A stretch of 64,000 bases of DNA from Stenotrophomonas tumulicola (GTDB lineage: Bacteria; Pseudomonadota; Gammaproteobacteria; Xanthomonadales; Xanthomonadaceae). The translations under genes and the position numbers were made by a program. The stretch covers positions 558,001 to 622,000 of the forward strand of contig NZ_JACGXS010000001.1 of assembly GCF_014117215.1 (NCBI RefSeq), written 5' to 3'. Below, piece by piece: positions 7,740 through 29,742 of the stretch; the stretch's first letter is position 1, and each line of letters opens with the position of its first letter. The notes beneath the pieces are model-generated. The model saw only the letters and a list, made by a program, of their open reading frames with translations. It was not told the origin of the DNA and made no database searches.

Positions 7740-7829
7740 GGAGAGATGGCCGAGCGGTTTAAGGCACCGGTCTTGAAAACCGGCGAAGGGTCAAACCTTC
7801 CGTGGGTTCGAATCCCACTCTCTCCGCCA
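7740..7829 (+). tRNA. tRNA-Ser (anticodon TGA)
   Basis: A 90-nt gene. The acceptor stem GGAGAGA pairs with TCTCTCC, with discriminator G and an encoded CCA at 7827-7829. The D-loop region has GCCGAGCGGTTTAAGGC. The anticodon arm CCGGT-CTTGAAA-ACCGG reads TGA, serving UCA and other UCN codons. A long variable arm, typical of serine tRNAs, precedes the T arm GTGGGTTCGAATCCCAC. The AT-richer island begins immediately downstream, so this is probably its integration site. Confidence 0.97.
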
Positions 7830-8781: not shown

Positions 8782-10515
8782 ATGGATAAGCTCAACTTTG
8801 GCGTCAACTCTCGTATTGCCACTTTGCTTAGCAATGAGTACTCATCAACGGAGCGGGCGTTGATTGAGCTGATCGATAACGCCTGGGACGCTGATGCAAC
8901 GAGGGTACTTGTGGATATCCCAGAGCCTCTCTCCGGTAATCCCATCGTCGTCTCGGACAATGGGAACGGAATGACCGTTGACCAGATCCGTACCCACTAT
9001 CTGCAGATCGCGGCTGACAGAAGGCGACGCTCCGGCGACAGCTCCATTCGGTTCAAGCGGAAGGTCAAGGGCAGCAAGGGCATCGGCAAGTTCTCTGGTC
9101 TGATGGCCGCCGCCGAGATGCGCGTTGATACCGCAGTGGGTGGGCGGCGGGTGAAGCTGAGCTTCACCCTCGAGCAGCTTAAGGATGTTGATGGAATCGA
9201 TGAACTGGAGATCCCCTACACGGTGTCTGTAGAGGATGAACATGTGCAGGGCACAACCATCACGCTCTCTCAGCTCAGGCAAGGGGGAGCTTATCCAGAC
9301 GCCGTTGAACTGAGGCACTTGCTAGTCCAGTCCTACGGGCGGCGTCAAGACATGGTTATCGAGATCAACGGCAAACCATTGGACGTCGACGATGTTCAAG
9401 GCCATTTTGAGGAGAAGGCAATCAGTGTTCCAGGCGTCGCGGACCTGACTGTTCGATTCGCCCTGAGCGAGCGAAAGACCGGCATGAAGAGTCCGGGAAT
9501 TCAGATCCGCGTGGGCTCGCGCATTGTGGGGCGGCCTTCACTCTTTGGGCTCGACCAACGTGGAGATATCTCGCCTAAGTTGCTGAAGAAGCTCTATGGC
9601 GAAATCGACCTAGAAGGCGTGGTGGACGCCAATGTTGCTAGCTGGGAGACCCTTGTTGCTGGTGACCCGACGTGGGCTCTCGTACAGGATCGTGTCAGGG
9701 ATGCTCTCTATGAGAGCTATCAGGCTCGCTTCAAGAGGCATATGAGTTTGGCCCGGGCTCGGCTGCAGCAGCAGTTCAACAAGAGGATGGCCGAGCTCCC
9801 CGAGTACAAGCGTGAGTTTGCTGATAAGGCGATCATGAAGGTGCTCAATCGATACTCCGACGAGCCTCACGAGAGGGTTGCTCCCATGGTCGCGGTTCTG
9901 CTTGATGCTCTGGAGAGTAGCGACTACCGGCTTCTGCTCGAGCACATTGCGGGGGCCTCAAGCGCCGATGTCTCAAAGGTTGCAGACTCACTCAACGACT
10001 TTGGTCTGGCTGATATGGCCCATTTGGTTGATCAAGCTCGAGCTCGGACGGCTGTTCTTGATGCGCTTGAAGACTTGTCCCGGGACAAGAGTACGCTAGA
10101 AGCTACTATGCATAGGGCGCTGGAGAGCAATCTTTGGGTGTTTGGTCCGGAGTTCGCCTTGTTTTCGTCCAACAAGACGCTGCGTCGAATGGTGGAGGAA
10201 TACTTGGACCAGAAGTACACCGGCGCCAATGCTACCGATCGGCCAGATTTGATGCTGAAGCAGAACTTTGCGGGAGAGTACCTGCTCATTGAATTCAAGC
10301 GCCCCGCGCATACGTTGACTGTCTCTGACTACCAGCAAGCAACTGGCTACAGGCATCACTTTGGTCCCTTCACATCCAGGCGTATCCGTGTCTACGTGGT
10401 TGGGGGAGATCGGGGCGCCTTTCCAACGAGCAACTTGGAACCGGACGTCGTAGGTACTTCATTTTTTGACGTCATCTCAATGGCGCGAACTCAGCTCGAC
10501 TGGCAGCTCAAGTAG
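8782..10515 (+). CDS. GHKL (MORC/Hsp90-like) ATPase fused to a PD-(D/E)XK nuclease-like domain
   Basis: A protein of 577 residues. The N-terminal ATPase shows the three Bergerat-fold boxes: N-box ELIDNAWDAD (Glu29, Asn33), DNGNGM (59-64) and a glycine-rich lid KGSKGIGKFSG (96-106). The middle (about 330-440) is helical. The C-terminus (from about 450) reads LESNLWVFGPEF ... RPDLML ... YLLIEFKRP, giving Asp489, Glu504 and Lys506, the D-ExK signature of PD-(D/E)XK nucleases, in a Shedu/DUF4263-like context. ATG 8782 has GGAG nine bases upstream; ATGs at 8767 and 8755 and an earlier start at 8728 are possible. Bacterial MORC-type ATPases are known from restriction and defence contexts, so a DNA-directed defence role is my inference. 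Confidence 0.8.
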   Translation: MDKLNFGVNSRIATLLSNEYSSTERALIELIDNAWDADATRVLVDIPEPLSGNPIVVSDNGNGMTVDQIRTHYLQIAADRRRRSGDSSIRFKRKVKGSKGIGKFSGLMAAAEMRVDTAVGGRRVKLSFTLEQLKDVDGIDELEIPYTVSVEDEHVQGTTITLSQLRQGGAYPDAVELRHLLVQSYGRRQDMVIEINGKPLDVDDVQGHFEEKAISVPGVADLTVRFALSERKTGMKSPGIQIRVGSRIVGRPSLFGLDQRGDISPKLLKKLYGEIDLEGVVDANVASWETLVAGDPTWALVQDRVRDALYESYQARFKRHMSLARARLQQQFNKRMAELPEYKREFADKAIMKVLNRYSDEPHERVAPMVAVLLDALESSDYRLLLEHIAGASSADVSKVADSLNDFGLADMAHLVDQARARTAVLDALEDLSRDKSTLEATMHRALESNLWVFGPEFALFSSNKTLRRMVEEYLDQKYTGANATDRPDLMLKQNFAGEYLLIEFKRPAHTLTVSDYQQATGYRHHFGPFTSRRIRVYVVGGDRGAFPTSNLEPDVVGTSFFDVISMARTQLDWQLK

Positions 10516-10538
10516 ATCTTCAAAGGCCTGGATACGCG

Positions 10539-10682
10539 ATGACGAACAGTAAGCCAATCCATGAGGAGCAGTGCCCTTTCTGCAAGGTCGGCGTCTTCGT
10601 AGACCGAGTGGGGCGCAATGGGCGCTTCAGGAGCTGTTCGAGCTATCGGGACTGCGAGAAAAAGCCGAGAAAGCGGCGCTGA
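10539..10682 (+). CDS. Small topoisomerase-type C4 zinc-ribbon protein
   Basis: A 47-residue frame starting ATG 10539, only 23 bp after the ATPase stop, and ending TGA 10680-10682. Four cysteines, CPFC (12,15) and Cys33/Cys39 in FRSCSSYRDCEKKPRKRR, match the C4 zinc finger found at the C-terminus of type IA topoisomerases, where it binds single-stranded DNA. The tail is very basic. Spacing suggests co-transcription with the ATPase-nuclease gene, of which it may be a DNA-binding partner. It could instead be a remnant of a longer gene. No strong Shine-Dalgarno is visible. Confidence 0.6.
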   Translation: MTNSKPIHEEQCPFCKVGVFVDRVGRNGRFRSCSSYRDCEKKPRKRR

Positions 10683-11068
10683 AGGCGTGGGTTCACTTGC
10701 AGTCCTTTCGCCGTCGTTTGACGCAGCTGTCCGAGAGGACAGCTGCGTCTGTGGACGATTCCCGCTTCCTGGCTCTTAAGGTTCGCTCAACTAGGGGCTT
10801 GTGCGTCGCGCCAGCCGGTCAGAGTCGGCTTTGCTGGCCAGACAGCCTGTGTATCTCTAACACGTCGGTGCTTCTCAAATGCTTGCAATCTGCCCACCTC
10901 TAGTCGAGACAACAGCTCCTCGGGACAGTCGCGGCGGGAGAGGACATATTTCAGGTCTGACCATGTTCGATGTAGCCGCGGTTTGCATTCTTCTATCGCC
11001 GCTACGAACGGTTCAAATATGCTCTGACGTAGCATGTCCGCCGCCCGCATCTGCTCAGCAGCCAATTC
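10683..11068. other. Non-coding stretch before the insertion sequence
   Basis: Apart from the hairpin at 10720-10749 I see no gene with a start signal or recognisable domain here. Short frames on both strands lack family features. Confidence 0.5.
10720..10749 (+). terminator. Strong hairpin after the ATPase / zinc-ribbon pair
   Basis: A perfect 13-bp inverted repeat, GACGCAGCTGTCC / GGACAGCTGCGTC, with loop GAGA, 38 bp after the zinc-ribbon stop. There is no clear T-tract, so termination is likely but not certain. No gene was found between here and the insertion sequence at 11069. Confidence 0.5.
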
Positions 11069-11426: not shown

Positions 11427-12287
11427 GTGATCGAACGTTGTCGCGATGAGTTTCCGATTCGGCTGATGTGCCGGTGCCTGAAGGTATCGGCCAGCGGCTA
11501 CTACGAGTGGAGTAAGCACCCTGCGAGCGCCCGGCAGGTCGACAATGAGCGCCTGGTTGTACGGATGCGCGAACTGCACGAAGACAGCCGCGGTACGTTG
11601 GGGGCTGGTCGCATGCGCGAAGACCTGGCTGAGGAGGGCGAAAGTGCCAGCCTGAACCGGGTTGCGCTCCTGATGGCAGCAGAAGGCCTGCAGGGCTGGC
11701 CCCGGCGCAAGCGTCGCGGGCAGCGTGCAGGTCCGGCCGTGACGCCACCAGGGGTGACTAACCTGCTTGAGCGCGATTTTGTCGCGCTGGAGCCGGAAAG
11801 CAAGTGGGTCACCGACATCACCGAGATCAAGACCCAGCAGGGCAAGCTGTATCTGTGCATCGTATTGGATCTGTACGACCAGCGTATTGTGGGCTGGTCA
11901 ACGCACGATCGGCAGGACCGTCAGATGGTGCTGCGGGCCGTACAAATGGCGGTGTGGCAGCGGCAAGAAAGTCATGAAGTGATCCTGCATTCGGATCGTG
12001 GCAGCCAGTTCCGCAGCGGTGACTACCAGGCGTATCTGGCGGCTAACGGACTGATCTGTTCAATGAGCGCAGTGGGGCATTGCGGTGACAACGCGGCCTG
12101 CGAAGGCTTCTTTGGGCTGCTCAAGCGTGAGCGGATCTATCGAACGAGCTACCCCACACTGGATGCAGCACGAGCGGATGTGTTTGACTACATCGAGCGA
12201 CGACATAATCCAAGGATGCGACGAAGGGTCGCCAGGCAGGATCAGAAGGTTGCAGCTCTTTTAGAACCGTCCGTGATATCGGGGTAG
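11427..12287 (+). CDS. IS3-family transposase OrfB (DDE integrase)
   Basis: The catalytic half, probably made mainly as an OrfAB fusion by -1 frameshifting; the frame is open upstream to the slip site (reading [16 protein letters not shown]). A HTH_21 region ([20 protein letters not shown]) precedes an rve integrase core with catalytic residues in WVTDITEI (Asp), [10 protein letters not shown] (Asp) and [12 protein letters not shown] (Glu). All are present, so the enzyme looks intact. The stop at 12285-12287 lies inside the right inverted repeat. Confidence 0.9.
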
Positions 12288-22264: not shown

Positions 22265-22695
22265 GGTGGTTACTTTTCCATCAGCGTGTTCAGGGAAAAG
22301 GCCACGGCAACGCGACTGTTCCAGCCGAAATGGCGCCCATGGATACGCATGCAAAGCCATGCAGGCGAACAGCTTGAACAGTTGAAACAGGGGGGCGAGG
22401 GCGCTGCCGTAAGCCAGTGTCCGAGTTCCCTCTGCTGAGGCCCACTCGGTATTGGGCGCGTTGGATGACGATAACGCCTGCGGCAATGCCAGGAAGAGAT
22501 TGGCAGCGCGGCGGAATATAACGTCGGCGGCGGGGGGCGTCAAACAGGCGAGATGCTACGGATATCCTGACGTTGTCTGGATGTTTGTTGATCGCTTCGC
22601 ATACCGAAAAAGTCCTGTCACCAGCACCCATTGGGTGGAAGCGTTGTCCGCTATTAGGCTATAAGAGACGTGTCCCCACCAATGGAGTACCCCTT
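22265..22695. other. Intergenic region with no supported gene
   Basis: About 430 bp between the SDR gene and the H-NS-like gene. It should contain both promoters. No domain-bearing frame or strong hairpin was recognised, and composition falls towards the right as the accessory stretch begins. Confidence 0.45.
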
Positions 22696-23256
22696 TTGGC
22701 CCTTACCACGCTCAAATTGCTCAACGCCGAAATCAAGCTGCTGGAAGCCCGGAAGAAACTGGTCGAGAAACGTGATGGCGAGGTGCCGAAGGCGCTGGCG
22801 GTCCTGCAGAACTACGCCAAGGTACTGACCGAAGCCCAGCGCCGCAAAGTCGCCCAGATCATCGGCCTGGCCTCCGACGGCGCCGCCAGTACCGCCCACG
22901 CTGCCAGGACGCCGAAAGCCGCCAGGAGCCCGCTCAAGGGGCGCAAGCTCGGCAAGGTCGTTGCCAAATATCAACTGCCCAGCGGGGAAACCTGGGCCGG
23001 TCGCGGTTTGACGCCGCGTGTGTTTACCGCCTGGGCGAAGTCGGCCCAGGGCAAGGCCTGGATCGCGGCGAACCCGGGCGAACGCTTCCCCGCAGCCGGT
23101 GCTGCAGCGAAGGCACCGGCCAAAGCGACCAGGAAGGCCGGCAAGGTCGTCAAGAAAGCTGCCAAAAAGCCAGCTGCCAGGAAGGCAGCGAAAAAGGCGG
23201 TAAAAAAGGCAGTTCGCAAGGTCTCCAGCAAGCCGGCCAATCGCGCCGCTAAGTGA
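22696..23256 (+). CDS. H-NS family nucleoid protein with lysine-rich tail
   Basis: A 186-residue protein. The N-terminal helical oligomerisation region (LKLLNAEIKLLEARKKLVEK) is followed by the H-NS DNA-binding motif region YQLPSGETWAGRGLTPRVFT, matching the family core (tG.tW.GRG..P). A histone-H1-like Lys/Ala tail follows (VKKAAKKPAARKAAKKAVKK). Initiation must be at TTG 22696: TGGAG at 22683-22687 sits eight bases upstream and no ATG or GTG is in frame nearby. H-NS proteins silence AT-rich acquired DNA, and this gene borders such a stretch. It overlaps the convergent gene by 8 bp. Confidence 0.8.
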   Translation: MALTTLKLLNAEIKLLEARKKLVEKRDGEVPKALAVLQNYAKVLTEAQRRKVAQIIGLASDGAASTAHAARTPKAARSPLKGRKLGKVVAKYQLPSGETWAGRGLTPRVFTAWAKSAQGKAWIAANPGERFPAAGAAAKAPAKATRKAGKVVKKAAKKPAARKAAKKAVKKAVRKVSSKPANRAAK

Positions 23257-25095: not shown

Positions 25096-26268
25096 CTAGG
25101 CATCCTTGATGGGGGTGACGGCGCGGCTGGTCCACGCAGGCGTCACCCAGGAGAAGAACCCGCCGCATTGATCTTTGACGGCGCACGTACTACAGGCGGG
25201 GAGGTAATCATTCTTCCAAGTGGAGATGCTCTGTGCAGCGTAGCGCCAGAGGCTCCTGTCGATAGTGCATAGCGGGAGGTTATAGAGCGAGACGGAGATT
25301 CCGCCGGAATGTAGTACTTCAACCGCAGCTTCGAGTTGCGCTGCGTAATCTGCCGGGTCTGCCCACAGGTCCCGATGGTGGGCTTTGGCGAACCCAATCG
25401 GTTCCACGCCCATTAGGGCAACGTGTTCGACGAATGGCAGGTTGCGGCCTATGAAGCGCGCCAGCTGAGCGAGTCGCTCGAAGGTCGGGCGTACGAGCAC
25501 CACGCGGATCTCAATGCGCTGCCTCGCCGCATGTAGGGCATAGATCCCGCGCAACGTCTCTGCAAATGCTCCTTCGCTCTGCACCACATAGTCGTGTAGC
25601 CCGTAATGGTCGCCGTAGAGGGGTATGCCCCAGCTGAGATTCGGATGAGCACCGTCGAACTTGGCATGAAGTCCCGGATCGCGCAGTCGTCCGTTGGATA
25701 AAATGTGCAAATGGGTGCATGGCAAGATGTCAGCGCACTTCCTCACCACGTCCACCAGCCCCTCGCCCAAGAGGGTTGGTTCACCGCCGCTTATCGCCAG
25801 CGACGGTTCGGTAGGATCAATGAGCTCAATGAGATCGAACAATTGGCGCACGCGCCAGTTGTCCTGTACATCACGAGGAGGTTGGGAACACATCAAACAA
25901 TAGCTGTTGCAACGTTCGGTGGCGAAGAGGACGTTGCCATTGTCCCCACGGCGATATCGAACAGCTACTCGTTGCCGGATAGGATCCAGCTCAATGACGT
26001 CTCCGGGCCTTGCAATTCGCGTATCGCCCTCGAACTTGATCCATGGAAGACTTTCCGGCCAAACCGTTCCATCTGGAGGGAGCAAGGCGCCCCATGGGAT
26101 ATCGAGAAGAGATGTGCTGATGACCTCCTCAGGAGCATCCCGAAGGTCCAAGGCCATCTTGCCGATGGGAAGGCCTGAGCCCGCGAACTCTTCCAAGCTC
26201 ATTACCTTCAGCAACGGCGAGACAGCCGTCAACGGCACTCGTGCCTTGGACTCAAGCGGCAACATCAC
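25096..26268 (-). CDS. hxsC: His-Xaa-Ser system radical SAM maturase HxsC
   Basis: A 390-residue radical SAM enzyme. The [4Fe-4S] site CX3CX2C is CNSYCLMC (Cys120, 124, 127), followed by the SAM-binding glycine motif ISGGEPTLLG. A C-terminal cysteine set (CSTCAVKDQCGGFF, near 359-368) may hold an auxiliary cluster. It is the third gene of hxsD-hxsB-hxsC-hxsA, overlaps hxsB by 17 bp and ends two bases before hxsA, so translation is probably coupled. It is presumed to modify His-Xaa-Ser repeats of HxsA. Confidence 0.9.
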   Translation of the reverse strand: MMLPLESKARVPLTAVSPLLKVMSLEEFAGSGLPIGKMALDLRDAPEEVISTSLLDIPWGALLPPDGTVWPESLPWIKFEGDTRIARPGDVIELDPIRQRVAVRYRRGDNGNVLFATERCNSYCLMCSQPPRDVQDNWRVRQLFDLIELIDPTEPSLAISGGEPTLLGEGLVDVVRKCADILPCTHLHILSNGRLRDPGLHAKFDGAHPNLSWGIPLYGDHYGLHDYVVQSEGAFAETLRGIYALHAARQRIEIRVVLVRPTFERLAQLARFIGRNLPFVEHVALMGVEPIGFAKAHHRDLWADPADYAAQLEAAVEVLHSGGISVSLYNLPLCTIDRSLWRYAAQSISTWKNDYLPACSTCAVKDQCGGFFSWVTPAWTSRAVTPIKDA

Positions 26269-27748
26269 ATGGCTCCGGGGTTGAATTCCTCCGTGTGCCC
26301 CATGATTCCATCAGGCGCTTGGTAGCCCGGTCTGCCAACTCGTAGCGTTCGAGTAAGAGGTCGAAGAGGCCCAAGTTGCGTTTGCAGAAATCGCTTGTTG
26401 GTCTGTGACCAACAGGGTCACCCTGTCTGGCGTAATGCTCGATGGGATCGGCGCCGCAAAGGGGGACGTAAGCGCAGTCAGCACAGGTGGGAAGTGCCTC
26501 CGCGACGCCGGCGCCCAACAACAAGGACATGGCAGGTGAGGAAAGCCATGAAGAAATGGGCTGGGAGACATCTCCCAATGAAAAGCTATGGTCCCCCATT
26601 GCCGCTAGCATTCGTGCCTCGTCCGACGGGTATACACGCCCGTCATAGTCGTAAATTATGGCGCCCAATCCCGCGCCGGAAGGCGATCGGAGATCGACGT
26701 AGCCGTGACCAAACGAGGTGAACAGTTGGGAAAGCAAGAGGGACGCATACGACTCGTCCATCGGATAGCCAGACTTGTTCACCGCGATCAGGTGTTCGAA
26801 GGCTTTCTTGTAGAACGCCAAGTATTCGTTTGTCGAATAGCCAGTTCGTTCTGCGGTTTTCCTCGCGAACCCATACGGACTCAATGGCCGCAGCGATATG
26901 GAGTTCAGGCCGAGCTTGCGGTACTCATCGATGATGGCTTCTGGGACATCCAGACTGCGTCTGGTGAGAGTCGTGAGGGCAGATACAGCGTCGTCTCCCA
27001 AGCGACGACGACCAGCGTCGATGCCCCGCACTGTTCGCTCGTAGCTATCTCGCCCTGGTCGCGGTCGATTAGCGTTATGCAGCCATTCTGGGCCGTCCAA
27101 TGAAGTTGAAAGCTTGAAGCGGTGCTCAGCGAGGAAGTCCAGTTGGAAATCGGTTAGGTCATGCAGCGTGGAAGCAAGTACGAACCGAAGGCTTCGCTTC
27201 TCTGCGCGATTTCGTTCAACGATGAGGTTGGTGATGGTCATCACTTGCTCAAAGTTGAGCAGGGGCTCTCCGCCCTGAAACTCGATGGTCAGCTCGGGGT
27301 TTGGCCACTCGAATAATCTGTCAACCGCCTGACGAGCGTGGTGCCCGGTGATGTCGAAGGAAGCGGCGTTTGTTTGTTGGCGAGAGACTTGGCAGTAGTT
27401 GCAGGTGTGATGGCAACGAAGGGAGACAACAAAGATATGCAGAGCGGGCCCGCCGATCAGGTAGGACTTTCGACTGCGGTATTGGCTAAACAGCGGAGCA
27501 AGCGTGCTCTGATGTGTGCCACCAATAGCTAGATGCCGAGCTTGGAGGTCTGCAAATAGCGGAGAATCGGCAGCTAGTTCATGCCTGATAAAGCGTTCCA
27601 AATCCCCCATGTCCATGAGGAGCCAGTCGCCAGCCATCGATGAGACAAAGGCGCGCTCACGATCCCAGGGCAGCCGCCTGAATCGCATCGGCAGCAATCG
27701 GTACGGTTGGGGTGGGTTGAAGGTCTCCGGTGGCCTGAACTTCATCAC
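26252..27748 (-). CDS. hxsB: His-Xaa-Ser system radical SAM maturase HxsB
   Basis: A 498-residue peptide-modifying radical SAM protein. The cluster motif is CHHTCNYC (Cys112, 116, 119), with EFQGGEPLLNFEQV as SAM-binding motif and a C-terminal SPASM-type region (TCADCAYVPLCGADP then a later Cys in SDFCKRN). This organisation is shared with anaerobic sulfatase-maturase-like and other RiPP maturases. It shares a 4-bp ATGA overlap with hxsD upstream and 17 bp with hxsC downstream. Two radical SAM enzymes for one substrate suggest sequential or different modifications. Confidence 0.9.
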   Translation of the reverse strand: MMKFRPPETFNPPQPYRLLPMRFRRLPWDRERAFVSSMAGDWLLMDMGDLERFIRHELAADSPLFADLQARHLAIGGTHQSTLAPLFSQYRSRKSYLIGGPALHIFVVSLRCHHTCNYCQVSRQQTNAASFDITGHHARQAVDRLFEWPNPELTIEFQGGEPLLNFEQVMTITNLIVERNRAEKRSLRFVLASTLHDLTDFQLDFLAEHRFKLSTSLDGPEWLHNANRPRPGRDSYERTVRGIDAGRRRLGDDAVSALTTLTRRSLDVPEAIIDEYRKLGLNSISLRPLSPYGFARKTAERTGYSTNEYLAFYKKAFEHLIAVNKSGYPMDESYASLLLSQLFTSFGHGYVDLRSPSGAGLGAIIYDYDGRVYPSDEARMLAAMGDHSFSLGDVSQPISSWLSSPAMSLLLGAGVAEALPTCADCAYVPLCGADPIEHYARQGDPVGHRPTSDFCKRNLGLFDLLLERYELADRATKRLMESWGTRRNSTPEPCDVAA

Positions 27749-29309: not shown

Positions 29310-29742
29310 GTCGAGCGACATAGTGACCCGTAGTGTCCTGCGTGAGGCATGCGACCAGCGGATCAGCGCAGGCAACTTCATCGTCAGTGCTTGATGCGAC
29401 CGCTTGCCGATGTCCTGGGGTTGCCCGTGGATGGTCAGTTGGTACGGCAGAATCAAGTTTTCCTCATGGACGCCAACGCGCCCTCTGCGCACGATGACGG
29501 TGCTGGCTCGTAGAGCCAGCCGGGATTGGCATCCTGACTCAGGTAATTCCATCGTTACTCTGTTCTTGCCCCTGGGGCACGGCGGAGAATGCACTGCATC
29601 GCCAGTCGGTCATACGGCGGGCGATGTGTGGGGATCCTTGATCCGCCGGATTTTCTGATGGTTTTGCCTGCCGGTATGCCAACCCGCATCGCCCGCCACC
29701 TTGCGCCTTGGCGCAGGTGGCCCATGCCAAGCGAGGTGATCC
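29310..29742. other. Intergenic region with a bulged hairpin
   Basis: About 430 bp without a supported gene. A stem-loop at 29696-29720 (CCACC-T-TGCGCC / GGCGCA-GGTGG, two-base loop) lies just upstream of the next start and could be a terminator or leader structure. A short CTGGCTC/GAGCCAG palindrome lies near 29504-29520. Confidence 0.4.

Follow-up and report, generated by a model that had tools for sequence, protein, structure and literature searches.

A GHKL ATPase joined to a predicted Shedu-type nuclease at a tRNA-Ser site of Stenotrophomonas tumulicola, with a probable helicase remnant beside it

Proteins that join a GHKL ATPase to a nuclease are already described, and they form the background for a gene of Stenotrophomonas tumulicola that encodes a 577-residue protein of this kind. 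The gene lies in a 64,000-nucleotide stretch of the genome (RefSeq GCF_014117215.1, contig NZ_JACGXS010000001.1, positions 558,001–622,000), here called the window. The paraMORC3 group has a GHKL domain followed by an S5 domain and a C-terminal restriction-endonuclease fold with an E-D-ExK signature; a subset of its genes is standalone and sporadic, and these might serve purposes beyond restriction-modification (Iyer, Abhiman and Aravind, 2008; PMC2292703). VcSduA, from the WASA lineage of Vibrio cholerae, combines GHKL and DUF4263 and protects against phage, the protection being lost on E27A or K557A substitution; such GHKL-DUF4263 proteins are assigned to Shedu type I-D, with reference to Gu et al. 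2025 (PMC12137116). In Escherichia coli SduA an N-terminal clamp binds DNA ends and nicking takes place at a fixed distance (2026 review, PMC12904381). A survey of Stenotrophomonas maltophilia places a Shedu gene in defence island 18; most of the islands contain or adjoin tRNA genes (PMC11680222).

The window protein is read here as a GHKL ATPase with a predicted Shedu-type nuclease, likely a lone antiphage enzyme in which an ATP-driven dimeric clamp would license the cutting of phage DNA. A probability of about 0.8 is given to this reading. Its basis is the domain order, the invariant active-site motifs, the predicted folds, a patchy distribution with no conserved partner gene and the position next to a tRNA-Ser gene. 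As the GHKL-Shedu architecture is already in print, the system is of a known kind.

The N-terminal half is the clearest part. It matches HATPase_c_3 at 2.9e-22 (Pfam), which is beyond chance, and the Bergerat ATPase boxes listed in a first-pass annotation of this DNA (E29, N33, D59-G61-G63 and K96-G97-K99-G100-G102) are present at those residue numbers, as are the nuclease residues D489 and E504-x-K506. Fold comparison of a full-length model shows residues 7–321 to have the GHKL and S5 fold of MORC2 (5ofb). The listed matches of that comparison stop at residue 321, and for this reason a separate model of the C-terminus was made; it matches the Shedu nuclease fold of SduA structures (8ps4/8ps5 and 8ti8/8ti9). 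Thus the two folds anticipated for this protein are both found in predicted models. Searched on its own against PDB sequences, the C-terminus gave nothing convincing, so the Shedu match among solved structures comes from fold comparison; with the family profile, GHKL proteins are among the best 60 PDB matches listed. The PADLOC SduA model matches the protein at 6.5e-6.

Both active sites are retained across the whole aligned family, as judged from sequence, since the motif residues are invariant and SduA_C is matched by 45 of 45 members (E ≤ 0.01, best 4.2e-8). The alignment (A1) contains the window protein (P0001), 23 of 120 database matches listed and sequences from 21 loci; L003, L006, L009, L021 and L023 were left out because of frame breaks or split or partial copies. 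There are 64 invariant columns among the 45 sequences, a number beyond chance. On the ATPase side they include D32 in addition to the residues already named, and on the nuclease side E440, H444, D489, E504, K506 and Q519.

When set against the described systems, the window protein seems to belong to paraMORC3. It has GHKL and then S5, a C-terminal restriction-endonuclease fold with E-D-ExK, and a standalone gene with no conserved neighbourhood (by neighbour clustering); the features compared, as described in print, show no difference. The marks of GHKL-bearing Shedu type I-D are also found: an SduA_C domain, intact PD-(D/E)XK residues and complete N-terminal GHKL motifs. VcSduA, as its authors present it, shares with the window protein GHKL motifs I–IV, a predicted clamp-like middle, a C-terminal PD-(D/E)XK DUF4263 domain and a single-gene arrangement; its antiphage activity is demonstrated, whereas that of the window protein is predicted. 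The SduA proteins of E. coli and Bacillus cereus have the same nuclease-domain fold and SduA_C profile. They differ at the N-terminus, where the window protein has a GHKL ATPase and E. coli SduA an end-binding clamp, with no ATPase named in the review's account of it (PMC12904381). The Shedu of S. maltophilia island 18 is from the same genus and may or may not be the same gene. The first-pass annotation had called the ATPase MORC-like, and this stands for the GHKL domain with its predicted MORC-like second domain. It does not stand for the class, which is paraMORC3 or GHKL-type Shedu: the strict MORC S5 motif GhXhhpXXRhl occurs in 0 of 45 aligned sequences (a regular expression run with no positive control), and a nuclease takes the C-terminal place. 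A literature search recognized no paper on this particular protein, which is weak as proof of absence.

The distribution is wide and sparse. A protein search gives at least 783 homologues, the best match among them, at 96% identity, being named S. maltophilia. A species-level genome collection contains 27 homologue loci, with titles that include alpha-, beta- and gammaproteobacteria, Planctomycetes, Verrucomicrobia, Gemmatimonadetes, Myxococcales and others; one of these (L025, 104 residues matched) was excluded from the neighbour and alignment work. Within the genus, 12 of 91 genomes have a match at E ≤ 1e-3, and these comprise the window's own copy, a full-length protein at 52% (G001), a broken copy and nine distant GHKL proteins. 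Of 149 genomes sampled from the family, 2 have a match at 1e-30. The class survey gives 1 of 369, the window's own genome, a lower bound as few candidates were scored per genome. Near-full-length close relatives also occur in five of 21 viral-contig loci, and some of ten neighbouring open reading frames (ORFs) at three of these loci match integrase, transposase or tail-fibre families (PHROGs).

Neighbours were taken as the two nearest ORFs of at least 130 amino acids per side, by a simple length-based gene call, at 26 loci; 96 were listed, and 95 remained after the very long L022:59-7012 was dropped. Among them are PADLOC matches at 1e-10 to Gabija, type I restriction-modification, pAgo/SIR2, BrxD, DRT, AbiD and others. 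Housekeeping genes, e.g. that for valyl-tRNA synthetase, are present too. When neighbours of these loci, the window and five further loci are clustered, the biggest groups besides the ATPase span five sequences (LysR family) and four sequences, the latter including the IS3-type transposase of the window. On two Rhizobiaceae plasmids, from Agrobacterium and Sinorhizobium (L077 5031-9761; L078 5009-9761), the homologue has upstream of it a divergent DEAD/DEAH helicase gene of some 842 codons. A conserved helicase partner was rejected, as this helicase clusters with no ORF of other loci.

The site itself adjoins a tRNA gene, as had been proposed. The window genome is 4.3 Mb in 25 contigs. Two sister species (L072 and L074) share the synteny of a LysR gene and the tRNA-Ser gene, and the variable segment is taken to begin at the 3′ end of the tRNA because blastn synteny stops there. 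The G+C content falls across this segment from about 65% to 55–58%. One of the sister species (G069, locus L074) has a decayed copy of the ATPase-nuclease gene at 9622-10158 of that locus, some 4 kb past this tRNA-Ser on its downstream side, where only residues 129–163 and 432–577 are matched, within one open frame of 257 amino acids. No phage-type integrase was identified among the window ORFs tested. Features of the window are listed in Table 1.

Table 1. Positions of the features discussed, in window coordinates
Feature	Position	Strand	Remarks
tRNA-Ser(TGA)	7740..7829	+	Left boundary of variable segment
GHKL ATPase with predicted Shedu-type PD-(D/E)XK nuclease, 577 amino acids	8782..10515	+	ORF
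Domain layout of this protein			Approximate residues, boundaries from models: GHKL 7-200; S5-like transducer 205-321; helical linker 322-434; nuclease 435-577
ATP-binding motifs E29/D32/N33, D59-G61-G63, K96-G97-K99-G100-G102	8866..9087	+	Invariant in 45-sequence alignment; numbering checked
Nuclease motifs E440, D489, E504-x-K506	10099..10299	+	Invariant in 45-sequence alignment; the E-D-ExK signature described for paraMORC3 (PMC2292703)
47-codon ORF, zinc ribbon	10539-10682	+	Begins 23 bp past ATPase stop
3′ end of UvrD/helicase-IV-type gene, rest of gene absent	10552..10691	+	DNA identity 83% over 140 bp with L071 helicase
Hairpin, perfect 13-bp stem, 4-nt loop, no T tract	10720..10749	.	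Direct sequence check
IS3-type transposase	11427-12287		Named from rve and HTH_21 domains
ORF with H-NS-like domain	22573-23256	+	C-terminal domain; 24.9 bits, just under Pfam cut-off 25.6
Two adjacent radical-SAM ORFs	25096-27748	-	Weak matches to prokaryotic viperin (PADLOC best 1.6e-6 and 7.3e-4)
C4 antisense RNA	29610-29703	+	Rfam RF01695, 53.1 bits, over gathering score

Several observations weigh against the reading of a lone Shedu-type defence enzyme. SduA_C at the C-terminus of the window protein scores 20.5 bits, below the Pfam cut-off of 27. In the fold comparison Shedu is tied with EndoMS within 1 Z and is 1.3 Z above Nt.BspD6I, so the Shedu assignment leans on the profile matches as well. 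Other models also claim members of the alignment: VRR_NUC, another nuclease family, matches 9 of 45, and the PADLOC MzaB model 25 of 45. VcSduA is probably not a close homologue, because by published numbering its ATPase Glu and nuclease Lys are 530 residues apart (27 and 557), 53 more than the 477 of the window protein (29 and 506); VcSduA is also not among the best 120 matches listed for a distant Stenotrophomonas paralogue, of which the named ones include Xanthomonas and Lysobacter. The survey of neighbours was made without a matched control set, which leaves any enrichment of defence genes unquantified. Finally, no defence genes were recognized beside the ATPase among the window ORFs tested, save weak matches to viperin at a distance of about 15 kb.

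A type II restriction enzyme of the BbrUII/HgiDII type, which would carry a GHKL domain, cut at a fixed sequence and need a cognate methyltransferase, is a very unlikely alternative. The window protein shares the N-terminal GHKL ATPase with these enzymes: the NCBIfam model (NF050001) scores 150 bits and a second, unlisted stretch of the protein also passes for BbrUII/HgiDII, while PADLOC type II restriction endonuclease models match the N-terminus at 4.3e-21 and match 45 of 45 aligned members. Distant GHKL relatives, moreover, adjoin a cytosine methyltransferase (phage PhiR44_1; L081). However, 150 bits is far from the cut-off of 550, the best stretch covers residues 18–206 only, and the C-terminus matches SduA_C. 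Nor was the expected methyltransferase found: a cytosine methyltransferase motif is found in 0 of 34 sequences (the first 32 kb of the window, 27 genome-contig loci, L073, L074, L077-L079 and L085) by a pattern that recovers two of two positive controls, and two earlier patterns, which catch one of two controls, likewise give 0 of 34. The motif scan covered the cytosine type alone; of the 95 neighbours, 2 are hit by models of type I methyltransferases.

A housekeeping or repair role, as of a MutL- or Hsp90-like GHKL protein, is very improbable. Matches of the window protein to the GHKL models of MutL and HtpG speak for it, as does the nearness of the nuclease fold to EndoMS, which is a mismatch nuclease. 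The suggestion of Iyer et al. on non-restriction roles of standalone paraMORC3 genes could be taken in the same sense (PMC2292703). Against it stand the sparse distribution, frame-broken or split copies at 5 of 26 loci (sequencing errors possibly in part), the decayed copy 3′ of the same tRNA-Ser in the sister species and the many defence-model matches among neighbours.

The 47-codon ORF that follows the ATPase gene raises the question of a two-gene system, in which a small zinc ribbon would hold single-stranded DNA for the ATPase-nuclease. The first-pass annotation had paired the two, and its description of the ORF is accurate: a topoisomerase-type ribbon is matched 23 bp after the stop (Zn_ribbon_Top1, 9.7e-6), at 25.7 bits under a Pfam cut-off of 32, the four cysteines are kept, and the strand is that of the ATPase gene. 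The pairing does not hold. The ORF finds its best relative in the final codons and the stop of a 916-amino acid helicase gene (genome G087, locus L071), whose product has UvrD-helicase, UvrD_C, Helicase_IV_N and Zn_ribbon_Top1 domains (Pfam). Helicase homology begins inside the 47-codon ORF and runs nine bases beyond its stop; 5′ of it there are chance-level words only. In the genus the 47-residue sequence is matched in 64 of 91 genomes at 71 places, of which 69 are enclosed by open frames of at least 872 amino acids, the exceptions being the copy in the window itself and one match in a 74-amino acid frame that is weak (3.9e-4).

Beside the ATPase and its relatives no counterpart appears. A tblastn search of 38 loci, several of them short-flanked, has a best E of 0.56, with three positive controls at 1e-16 to 1e-23, and five viral-contig loci (L088-L092) plus L085 have a best E of 0.50. 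A word-based database search finds no small homologues, plasmid records have no match, and a regular-expression ribbon scan beside 26 homologue loci yields only frames that resemble chance cysteine-rich stretches. The window tail also departs from 29 helicase tails (the fetched loci out of the 71 places, the window's own excluded), with Arg37 for Pro in 29 of 29 and Phe14 for Val in 28 of 29. The ratio of non-synonymous to synonymous substitution (dN/dS) relative to the G087 tail is 0.11 (11 codons with synonymous and 8 with non-synonymous differences); this could be looked at as favouring a working gene, but it mixes both branches, and since the constrained helicase branch is included it neither proves nor excludes ongoing selection on the fragment. 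The ribbon as a functional partner is therefore rejected as a helicase 3′ end with no counterpart found beside relatives of the ATPase: most likely it is what is left of a helicase gene and plays no part in the mechanism, and the two-gene system is very improbable. That the captured remnant became, in this Stenotrophomonas lineage, a free-standing 47-residue DNA-binding accessory tuning which phage DNA the clamp loads is an equally long shot.

How the helicase end came to this place can be asked. Insertion of the segment into a resident helicase at the same tRNA-Ser was considered because 9 of 29 helicase loci have a tRNA-Ser match within 1.5 kb and the helicase end adjoins in L072. It was not adopted, as the orientation differs: the L072 helicase runs toward the tRNA, and the tail in the window has the opposite direction, away from the tRNA. 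The locus with the closest tail (L071) has no such tRNA in its 14 kb.

The hairpin said to close the pair is present, and the 98-nt segment around it folds with z = -3.6 (equal or better in 1 of 200 shuffles). A role as terminator is unsupported; the terminator scan found one site (shuffle mean 2.6), located elsewhere, and the hairpin is without a T tract. Nor is it a dispersed repeat, as the 24-nt core is found at one place in the genome and the 198-bp segment matches itself alone.

What remains of the compact defence system first proposed is thus the single gene, with a likely defence role by prediction. It is probably a functional GHKL-type Shedu defence gene with a misleading neighbour. 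By analogy with VcSduA, which has the same architecture, antiphage activity would need both active sites. Two protomers would bind ATP and their GHKL domains dimerize, closing a clamp on DNA; the S5 and linker domains may then relay clamp closure to the nuclease pair, which would nick or cut the DNA. Dimerization and DNA entry via the clamp are suggested by GHKL relatives and E. coli SduA. Phage DNA might be told apart, as in E. coli SduA, by its ends, linear topology or another feature of linear DNA.

Some other observations concern distant relatives and the surroundings. In a Rhizobium sp. B21/90 plasmid (L083 5911-9316) a distant GHKL ATP-binding protein has an E-I-K nuclease-like motif, and 10 bp past its gene begins another, annotated separately as a Shedu immune nuclease; a DEAD/DEAH helicase is nearby. 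In Escherichia phage PhiR44_1, which has P2-type gene names, a gene annotated as paraMORC3 and a Dcm gene adjoin in convergent orientation (L076 5941-8989), and this is a phage-borne restriction-type pair. UvrD/helicase-IV-type genes are found within 1.5 kb of a tRNA-Ser match in the nine helicase loci mentioned (among L042-L070) and also in L072 (3752-6713); several systems may therefore use the tRNA-Ser as a hotspot. Further along the window, the viperin matches probably reflect merely the shared radical-SAM core, and the C4 antisense RNA suggests phage-type immunity control.

With this gene the GHKL-type Shedu group, in which VcSduA is a tested member, gains a subfamily that is compact and widely scattered. 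Having ATPase and nuclease in a single short polypeptide makes it convenient for studying how a nuclease could be gated by a MORC/Hsp90-like clamp. The neighbour carries a separate lesson: a chopped helicase tail can pose as a small ‘zinc-finger gene’, and conclusions drawn from operon structure in defence islands can be trapped by it.
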